Virus record (IMG/VR): IMGVR_UViG_3300022074_000134
Span: 1-38,166 of that record
Length of the DNA: 38,166 bases
Origin: a virus
Strand: one strand, 5' to 3'
Position numbers and translations under genes: made by a program. Shown here piece after piece: positions 2,708-34,237 of the stretch. Position 1 is the stretch's first letter, and each line of letters opens with the position of its first letter. The notes beneath the pieces are model-generated. The model ran no database searches. It had not been told where the DNA came from and saw nothing but the letters and a program-made list of their open reading frames with translations.

Positions 2708-3840
2708 TTATGACAAGCCAGAAATCATGCCATCTGCACCGTAGTTCATGTGCTTCAGTGAGTATTCACCCACAACGGCGTGTGTATCGCCGTCTGAGGT
2801 CTTACCCAGCAGAGTACGTGAGAACGGACGCAACACAGCTGAACGCCACATTGAGGGATCAATGAGGAGTGCATGCGTTGTCTTCATGTGGCGGTTAAGT
2901 ACAATCTTGTACTCACCAAATGGACTGCAATATCTTCGCTCCAGCTCGCTAAACTGAAACCGCCTTTCGGCTGCTTATGGTTTCCCATAAAGTTGAGACT
3001 ATATCATCACTGCTTTCCGCAGTGCTCTGCGCTTCCACCTGCTTAGGTGTACGAGAAATTCTCTAGTCGTTGAACCTTCCCCTGGTGGGGCTTGGCTGCT
3101 GATTGCCCACAGCATTATCTGTTTGGGTGTCCCAGCAATTCACAGAGTTTAATGTACGCCAGTTGTCCTTAGTTAACGTACAGATCAATCACGTTGATCA
3201 GTGAGCGTGTCTGAGCGAACTCACGGTTGCGACCAGATGATGCTGCAAAATTAGCAACAATGGTGGCATCCGCAGGTTTGATCATGAAGATCGATGGATC
3301 ACTGCCGTTATCGTAACAGTCTTCACCCAGCTCAAGCAGCTTCGCTTCGGTCAATGCGTCTGTGGCGTTTGCGCCGGCATCAACGTCAGTTGTAATCTGC
3401 GCGATGGCTGAATCCATCTCACGTGCAGTCGAGGCATTGCCAGTTACTTTGGCATTGTCTTGACCGACATAAGCAAATTCTAGATCGCGCTTAATCTCTT
3501 TCAAAACTTTCGAAAGTTGATGGGCGGTCTCTCGTGCGCGGCCATGAGTTTTAATGGCATCGGCCGTCGCGCTGACCTCGAAAACCTTGCTCAGGATCTG
3601 CGTATTGTTAGTCCGTAGAGTGGTAGCTGTTTGTGTGCCAGCTGAAAAAGAAGCCCCTTCGACTTGCTTATTATCAGCCGCCGCAGCAAGCGCATCTTCT
3701 TGCCACTCGAATACACGTGCTGATACTTTCTCGGACTTAATTGAGGTAGTAAAAGGCACATCTGTCGGTGTAATGTCGGTGATAATCGCAGAAACGTCTT
3801 CCGCTTTTCCGACCTGGTCGTATGTAGAAAATACTGCCAT
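2708..3840 (-). CDS. Major capsid protein, two exons split by a group I intron
   Basis: Exon 1 is 3840-3176 (221 codons plus GT) and exon 2 is 2927-2708 (C plus 72 codons and TAA). Together they encode 294 residues. Exon 1 starts MAVFSTYDQVGKAEDVSAI after a GGAGA ribosome site and follows the DUF5309/SU10 major capsid pattern: DVPFTTSIKS, the RVFEWQEDAL segment, and GRNREFAQ near residues 204-211. Exon 1 alone stops after DLYVN, where such proteins continue with a beta strand and conserved tail. Exon 2 supplies it: SPFGEYKIVLNRHM, LIDPSMWRSAVLRPFSRTLL and the final VVGEYSLKHMNYGADGMISGLS-type end. The junction codon is GT|C (Val222), giving LYVSPFGEY. Scaffold and portal genes lie upstream. 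Homology is from memory of the family; the exon structure is read directly. Confidence 0.88.
2928..3175 (-). ncRNA. Group I self-splicing intron, subgroup IA-like, no ORF
   Basis: The intron is 248 nt. Exon end TGTACGT (3182-3176) pairs with the guide GCGTACA (3159-3153) as P1, with the U-G wobble exactly at the 5' splice site. ACTG (3163-3160) pairs with exon 2 CAGT (2927-2924) as P10. P3 is CTCTGTG (3147-3141) with CGCAGAG (3031-3025). P4 is TTGCTG with CAGCAG. P7 is GACTA (3068-3064), inside the classical GTTCAACGACTAG box, with TAGTC (3001-2997). P8 is CACTGC-GGAAA-GCAGTG (3024-3008). A hairpin CACCT-AAGC-AGGTG between P7 and P3 corresponds to P7.1/P7.2, typical of IA phage introns. P9-type hairpins carry GAAA loops. 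The last base is G. No endonuclease fits inside. Confidence 0.93.
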
Positions 3841-32308: not shown

Positions 32309-33145
32309 CTAGCCAGCTGCCGCCATTCGTTTTGCAATGTCGCCAATAGTTTCCGGCTTAATGTGGATATATTTAGACGTAGTTTTGTGATTTCTGTGAC
32401 CAAGCCACTGACCAATGACATCGCTGTTGAGACGCATGTCGTTAGCCATAGAGCTGGCTGCGGTATGTCGGAATACGTGAAATACAAAGTCTTTATCACC
32501 AGGCGCTACACGCGCTCTTAGGACGTTCCAAAGTAGATAGAACTCTTTTGCGTTGTAAGGGAAACCAGCAGCTAGGCTGCGAGCTGCATCAATCGCTTCC
32601 TGTTTGTACAAAGCTACCTGCCGCTGGTCGCCGTTCTTTGTCTCAAACAGAGTGATCCACCAGAGACCATCGTCACCCTCTTCGACACACGTTTTCCCAG
32701 GGTGCCGCAAGTTGCTGATCTCTGAGTGACGCATGCCAGTGTAACGAGCCAGATCACACATCTCCTTAAACCACATTGGTACGCGAGGGTTATCACAAAA
32801 GAGACGAATCGCATCCAGCTCCTGGTCACTGAAGAACCTGATACGGTGGTCTTCTGAGGGCGTTTTAACGCTGATTACACGTGCAGCCATACCTGACGCC
32901 CTGGCAAAGCTCAACACCGCCTGTACGGCCGCCACGTAGCGATTAATGGTAGCTTTAGATAAGCCGTCTGCCTCTAATGCATCCATCATGCGGTACAGGT
33001 GGCTGCCATCGATCTCAGCCATCTCAATGTTGCCCACGACACCCACAAAACGCTGGATGCGGTGGGTGCTTTCGTTCCGGTGCTTTTCTTTAGACCAGAT
33101 CCGGGTGTTGTACTTAAACGTGAAGTTCTCAATACGTGTATCCAT
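32309..33145 (-). CDS. int: Tyrosine-type site-specific integrase
   Basis: A 278-residue recombinase. The core-binding domain spans about 15-85 (HLYRMMDALEADGLSKATIN). The catalytic domain shows the full set: Arg139 (TGMRHSE), Lys170 (FETKNG), His223-x-x-Arg226 (HVFRHTAASS), His250 (WLGHRNHKTTS) and the nucleophile Tyr259 (KYIHIKP). It would recombine the attP at 34144-34198 with a host tRNA-Arg gene. The N-terminal arm-binding domain is short, so arm-site use may be limited. No excisionase gene is recognised nearby. Confidence 0.95.
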   Translation of the reverse strand: MDTRIENFTFKYNTRIWSKEKHRNESTHRIQRFVGVVGNIEMAEIDGSHLYRMMDALEADGLSKATINRYVAAVQAVLSFARASGMAARVISVKTPSEDHRIRFFSDQELDAIRLFCDNPRVPMWFKEMCDLARYTGMRHSEISNLRHPGKTCVEEGDDGLWWITLFETKNGDQRQVALYKQEAIDAARSLAAGFPYNAKEFYLLWNVLRARVAPGDKDFVFHVFRHTAASSMANDMRLNSDVIGQWLGHRNHKTTSKYIHIKPETIGDIAKRMAAAG

Positions 33146-34143: not shown

Positions 34144-34198
34144 TGGCGATTCCGGGAGGACTCGAACCCCCAACCTGCTGATTAGAAGTCAGCTGCTC
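34144..34198 (-). other. attP core: 3' part of a tRNA-Arg(UCU) gene
   Basis: On the minus strand the segment reads as a perfect tRNA 3' part: D-stem end GAGC (34198-34195), anticodon stem-loop GCTGA-CTTCTAA-TCAGC with anticodon TCT (34186-34184), variable AGGTT, T-arm GGGGG-TTCGAGT-CCTCC, acceptor strand CGGAATC, discriminator G and CCA (34146-34144). The 5' acceptor (needed GATTCCG) and D-stem are missing upstream, so it is not a tRNA gene. A tRNA 3' half beside an integrase gene is the standard form of a phage attachment site; crossing over there leaves the host tRNA intact. Confidence 0.88.
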
Positions 34199-34237
34199 GC
34201 CACAAGTGGACTTCCTACCGATTCTATACCACGCAAC

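Follow-up and report, generated by a model that had tools for sequence, protein, structure and literature searches.

A 248-nucleotide group I intron in an SU10-type phage major capsid protein gene, and a polymorphic multi-intron capsid gene among its relatives

Introduction

Why does the major capsid protein (MCP) gene of a phage stop at codon 223, with its missing C terminus lying 248 nt further downstream? The question is posed by the window, by which we mean the whole 38,166-nt stretch of marine viral DNA analyzed here (IMG/VR record IMGVR_UViG_3300022074_000134, positions 1 to 38,166). An earlier reading, made from the letters and open reading frames (ORFs) of this DNA and called here the sequence-only reading, took the gap at 2928-3175 to be a group I intron on whose splicing full-length MCP depends, and considered the capsid gene of a "T7-type" phage an unusual place for one. 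We asked whether the insert is such an intron, what else could account for it, and how common introns are in related capsid genes.

Results

The insert and its exons

When the two parts of the gene are joined from 3176 to 2927 on the minus strand, they form a 294-aa frame with zero stops. Because the insert adds an in-frame stop (TAA) after two codons, unspliced mRNA would yield only the 223-aa product. The parts of the gene are as follows.

3176..3840, minus strand: exon 1 of the MCP gene, covering codons 1-221 plus two bases of codon 222; family assigned through the SU10_MCP (PF17236) match of the intronless sister L002
2928..3175, minus strand: group I intron of 248 nt without a homing endonuclease ORF, supported by RF00028 (87.2 bits), the empty alleles L002-L007, and covariation
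2708..2927, minus strand: exon 2 of the MCP gene, from the last base of codon 222 to the stop, which is included; 0 nonsynonymous differences from four intronless sisters

The predicted spliced junction joins CTGTACGT to CAGTCCATTT, and the ends of the insert agree to the base with those proposed earlier. We searched IMG/VR for MCP relatives with the joined window protein. The intronless alleles L002-L007, with 97-98% amino acid identity to the window MCP, run unbroken across 882 nt (294 codons), and the predicted spliced protein is 98% identical to that of L002. The sequence-only reading had predicted a ligated codon GTC (Val) and the segment YVSPFGEY; this product is found as a natural intronless allele, L002 having GTT, also Val, at the junction codon. 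The SU10_MCP profile matches L002 with 256.5 bits over residues 5-293. We therefore class the window MCP as SU10-type. The replication genes are T7-like, so that the earlier label "T7-type" suits them, but the MCP is not of the T7 gp10 type.

Exon 2 differs from the same region of the four intronless sisters by 3-5 synonymous codons and by no nonsynonymous one. The region beyond the stop is therefore under purifying selection, which we regard as strong comparative evidence for translation of exon 2 within the capsid protein. We considered exon 2 as a separate ORF and rejected this, as the stretch from the last stop of the intron to the junction has no in-frame ATG, GTG, or TTG. The window intron recurs in identical form at the same site in three other alleles (L032, L081, and L342). 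The window and L027 share a block of 98-100% identity (2710-3025) that starts about 150 nt ahead of the intron site and runs through exon 2, whereas upstream of it they are 87-89% identical; the block is likely the result of a recent recombination.

The sequence-only reading had proposed a covariance search with the Rfam group I model. Indeed, RF00028 matches the window record at 3191-2974 with 87.2 bits (E = 4e-21; gathering score, 50 bits). Rfam found no further group I intron elsewhere in the window record, and no homing endonuclease ORF was found inside the 248-nt intron. The same record holds a partial tRNA match (34153-34204, minus strand; Rfam, 29.3 bits), and a gene for a tyrosine integrase (32309-33145) lies about 1 kb away. 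ARAGORN found no full tRNA, and the partial match may be a remnant of an attachment site.

RNA structure of the insert

The window intron holds all core helices P3 to P9, including the P3/P7 pseudoknot core. Its P1 has 7 bp, its P10 has 4 bp, and it ends in G2928. The elements, all on the minus strand, are as follows.

3176..3182, minus strand: P1, 5' splice-site side, UGUACGU, with a U.G wobble at the cut
3153..3159, minus strand: internal guide sequence, the intron side of P1, GCGUACA
3160..3163, minus strand: P10, intron side, ACUG, pairing with exon 2 CAGU at 2924-2927
3141..3147 (5' strand) and 3025-3031 (3' strand), minus strand: P3, 99% of cells paired, with both-side changes in 4 of 7 pairs
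3097..3137, minus strand: P4 (3132-3137 with 3097-3102) and P5 (3119-3127 with 3106-3112), from alignment covariation
3074..3096, minus strand: P6 and P6a, from alignment covariation
3064..3068 (5' strand, GACUA, within the GTTCAACGACTAG box) and 2997-3001 (3' strand, UAGUC), minus strand: P7
3036..3063, minus strand: P7.1 (3053-3063) and P7.2 (3045-3049 with 3036-3040), predicted hairpins
3008..3024, minus strand: P8, from alignment covariation
2939..2991, minus strand: P9 (2985-2991 with 2974-2980), P9.1 (2962-2971), and P9.2 (2954-2959 with 2939-2944)

Rfam's own alignment puts P1 of this intron in the wrong place. The predicted fold lies 3.6 standard deviations below that of dinucleotide shuffles. 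We then compared the named structure across an alignment of 36 related introns, all from capsid genes. Standard pairs fill 93.4% of cells; shuffles give 73.7%, and sliding the partners leaves no more than 42% of cells paired. Both sides have changed in 47 of the 63 base pairs, including P7, in which UA is replaced by CG on both sides in 10 of the 36 introns. The hairpins P7.1 and P7.2 are paired in 70% and 94% of cells, respectively; their position between P7 and P3 presumably places the intron in subgroup IA. The helices P1, P3, P4, P7, P8, and P10 and the terminal G named earlier are thus all present, with covariation across the relatives. We conclude with high confidence that the insert is a group I intron with these boundaries, and we infer that it is spliced. 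That full-length MCP would depend on this splicing, as had been claimed, is supported by the structure, the covariation, and the natural empty alleles.

Introns in related capsid genes

Among 190 distinct MCP alleles found in IMG/VR with MCP queries alone, 37 carry at least one intron, with one to three each. In a larger set of 210 distinct alleles, consisting of these MCP-query relatives and contigs recruited by an intron-core pattern, splice-aware alignment placed 73 introns, up to four per gene. All 73 have an exon U and an intron G at their boundaries and contain an in-frame stop; P1 has at least 3 bp, and P10 is usually present. Rfam confirmed the introns at the scanned loci, among them the four of L164 and the three in each of L342, L201, and L229. 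When whole records were scanned, two runs over the first 80 relatives gave 24 group I introns; a third run gave 49 in another 49 records, many of which had been recruited for carrying the intron core. Every intron position from the three scans agrees with its placement in the MCP gene by splice-aware alignment; the MCP gene makes up about 6.5% of the 1.10 Mb in the first 80 relatives.

The insertion sites recur, at residues (with codon phase) 6p1, 18p2, 25p0, 86p1, 106p1, and 221p2, and others were seen once each, at 50, 56, 58, 115, and 224p1; these positions are approximate for MCPs below about 45% identity. The alleles nearest to the window differ in their introns: L081 has one at 221, L032 has two (6 and 221), L342 has three (25, 86, and 221), L008 has one at 25, and L002, L004, L006, and L007 lack introns altogether. 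Alleles with none, one, two, or three introns thus occur within the phage type of the window.

We found no homing endonuclease ORF in the 73 introns of SU10-type MCP genes. The longest ATG ORFs in the related introns are short, except in L319. Its 519-nt intron (L319:980-1498), at MCP site 106, holds a 93-aa ORF in the P8 loop with a start like that of a signal peptide (MKHTILFIMLLWSSQAIA); the product resembles a secreted protein and not an endonuclease, and we dropped the insert as an endonuclease carrier. Among cultured phages, the sole split hit to an MCP of the SU10 family was Vibrio phage PVA7 (L423). The annotation breaks its capsid region (PQ582223.1, 30350-35711) into many short ORFs, which looks like the effect of frameshifts in the record and not of an intron, and we set it aside.

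Other capsid families and other host genes

A scan of IMG/VR with an intron-core pattern gave at least 120 contigs. As the pattern was modelled on the introns of SU10-type MCP genes and at least 120 contigs were listed, the counts describe this sample and are not frequencies for all phage introns. The intron core lies in an SU10-type MCP gene in 22 of the 120 contigs listed. In about 30 more, the flanking ORFs, taken one by one or through the representative of their cluster, match other major head proteins: phrog_1357, 267, 3437, 9953, 10/617, and 422 and, weakly, 371. Thus, about 52 of the 120 listed contigs have the intron core in MCP genes of several unrelated families. In the remainder, the host genes include those for DNA polymerase, ribonucleotide reductase, tail sheath, tape measure, portal, and scaffold proteins, and many are unassigned. 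Among the matches listed, MCP is the commonest host gene for the window's intron subclass.

The most divided gene is in L275 (3637-5845), where a 382-aa phrog_1357-type MCP is encoded in seven exons separated by six introns that Rfam supports. Identity of these exons to the intronless L478 is 90-98%, apart from one short piece (58%) at which the alignment runs across an intron. A phrog_1357-type MCP gene in L220 (3089-4943) has four Rfam group I introns. Long introns also occur in phrog_1357-type MCP genes of L268 (4504-5427), L186, L207, L238, and L274, and there an intron-adjacent ORF cluster matches the LAGLIDADG homing endonuclease family phrog_11023.

How the introns spread

On a tree of the introns, insertion-site labels require 24 changes, against a minimum of 20 and 43.9 in shuffles; the introns cluster by insertion site. 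They are usually closer to each other than their exons are (95% versus 74% for L079 and L256; 93% versus 74% for L139 and L421), a contrast that suggests lateral transfer at a shared site and that structural constraint may inflate by slowing intron change. Carriers are scattered over the MCP tree, a FastTree tree with some long branches: the 52 carriers among 200 alleles require 30 changes, the 17 carriers at site 221 require 13, and the 13 at site 18 require 12.

Some introns have close sisters at other sites. The well-supported cases include the intron at site 6 of L032 with that at site 25 of L008 and L342 (95% identical; target A/GCCU), and the intron at site 224 of L164 with that at site 56 of L076 (target CCGU). 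A further well-supported pair lies inside a single allele, L252, at sites 25 and 58 (84% identical; target GCCU). Such sisters share the 4-nt P1 target only, and their 3' flanks are unrelated. Sorted by site, the P1 targets are GCCU or ACCU at 6, 25, 50, 58, and 86 and CCGU at 56 and 224. At site 86 of L342, the exon has GUGU instead of GCCU and the guide has changed to GCAC, which matches it. This pattern fits guide-directed insertion.

Discussion

Taken together, these data suggest that the window carries a complete, ORF-less group I intron in codon 222 that is spliced to give a 294-aa MCP and comes from a family that often enters and leaves capsid genes. We assign this reading a probability of roughly 0.93. 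In the late mRNA, the intron would fold around its P3/P7 pseudoknot core, with P1 formed with exon 1 and P10 with exon 2. It would then bind guanosine, cut after U3176, and join U3176 to C2927, a chemistry we infer; joining would restore the 294-aa capsid protein. At the population level, small introns of this kind would often be gained and lost in capsid genes while keeping to defined sites. Divergent phages would exchange them at a given site, and now and then an intron would shift to another site of the same gene that has the 4-nt P1 target in common. The mobile step could be recombination, homing through an endonuclease supplied elsewhere, or guide-directed reverse splicing.

The insert could also be a splicing-defective intron, in a phage that is itself defective or uses a truncated 223-aa MCP. 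The first 223 codons are an intact ORF, and our evidence comes from sequence, both of which leave some room for this idea. We nonetheless find it highly improbable, given that P1, P7, and P10 are intact and covary, that exon 2 has kept its amino acid sequence relative to the four sisters, and that the identical intron sits at the same site in three other alleles. A programmed bypass or an intein would likewise interrupt the coding frame exactly, as this insert does. The stop after two codons means that it cannot be an intein; a 248-nt gap with a full group I core, matched end to end by RF00028, is no known bypass element. We rejected both, and their chance is negligible.

We next consider how an intron without an ORF might move. 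It may be an endonuclease-driven intron that has lost its ORF and moves by means of a free-standing endonuclease of the phage, a co-infecting phage, or the host, and we rate this at slightly under even odds. Collaboration between an intron and a free-standing endonuclease has been described for the psbA introns of cyanophages. Site fidelity, lateral transfer at one site, and the LAGLIDADG-bearing introns in the phrog_1357 MCP genes of L186, L268, and others speak for it. Yet a search confined to HNH, HNH_3, and GIY-YIG found none of these genes in about 50 phage records, mostly fragments and including intron carriers (the window was searched for HNH only). In older transfers, exon identity is not raised outside some 15 nt on either side of the site, where co-conversion tracts would be expected, and the cross-site sisters have only a 4-nt target in common. 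Those sisters would be easier to understand if the intron reverse spliced into abundant capsid mRNA (or DNA) through P1 and P10 pairing, followed by recombination. The capsid gene would then be a hotspot because the late capsid transcript is the commonest RNA in the cell, and a hotspot is what we see in several MCP families that are unrelated to one another. The near-identical introns that occupy two sites, sharing the P1 target there but not the 3' flank, also agree with it. This route needs a reverse transcriptase or a DNA-level step, however, and we identified neither. Moreover, whatever the mechanism, an intron can survive at a new site only with a matching P1, and so a shared P1 target alone cannot prove reverse splicing. 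We consider reverse splicing possible but rather unlikely. A broader form of the idea is that small endonuclease-free group I introns land in the MCP genes of marine phages in general and hop between guide-matched sites, reverse splicing into whichever late mRNA is most abundant; this would account for none to three introns within one phage type and for genes of up to seven exons. It is speculative, and we hold it to be doubtful.

Was a capsid gene an unusual place to find a group I intron? According to a 2025 review, the commonest mobile phage introns interrupt DNA-metabolism genes (PMC12908238), and to that extent the sequence-only reading was right. However, capsid-gene introns have been published. 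In mycobacteriophage LittleE, RT-PCR and N-terminal sequencing through the splice junction demonstrated that a capsid intron is spliced (Pope et al. 2013, PMC3706429). The LittleE and window introns are both of group I type in a phage MCP gene, with an exon U and an intron-terminal G. The LittleE intron is 820 nt long, has a homing endonuclease ORF, and occupies one site in a siphovirus of an actinobacterium, whereas ours has 248 nt and no ORF and belongs to a podovirus-like SU10-type MCP family with many sites. The intron in a minor tail gene of BAKA and Optimus (PMC3706429) resembles ours in being short (265 nt), free of an endonuclease, and in a virion gene; it differs in lying in a tail gene and at one site. 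Lactococcal phage Tuc2009, as cited in PMC3706429, has a single intron in a capsid gene, so its host gene, like that of the window, encodes a phage capsid subunit. The MCP gene of Faustovirus E12, with five group I introns (PMC6247863), shares with the window's MCP group the presence of several such introns per capsid gene; unlike it, this is a giant amoebal virus with long introns, GIY-YIG ORFs in two of them, and spliceosome-like introns as well. Among cultured phages, the DNA closest to the intron core is in Staphylococcus phages of the 812/K type and Alteromonas phage AD45 (71-75% over 108-181 nt), and those introns lie in genes other than MCP (tail tube, an HNH ORF, and others). A literature search, with most subscription journals outside it, found no report of several introns in one phage MCP gene. 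A single capsid-gene intron was already known; the polymorphic multi-intron phage capsid gene has no counterpart in the papers searched. In our sample of listed matches, MCP genes are a favored home of such self-splicing introns and not an exception.

The location has consequences for the phage and for those who study it. Each virion takes hundreds of copies of the capsid protein, and efficient splicing is therefore required for assembly. Gene callers will split or truncate such capsid genes, and surveys of marine phages that use a capsid marker will miss or misjudge about a fifth of the alleles in the SU10-type MCP group. A multi-intron capsid gene without an endonuclease is a natural system for the study of how introns move and gather in one gene, and the empty, single, double, and triple alleles within one phage type make intron gain, loss, and cost directly measurable.
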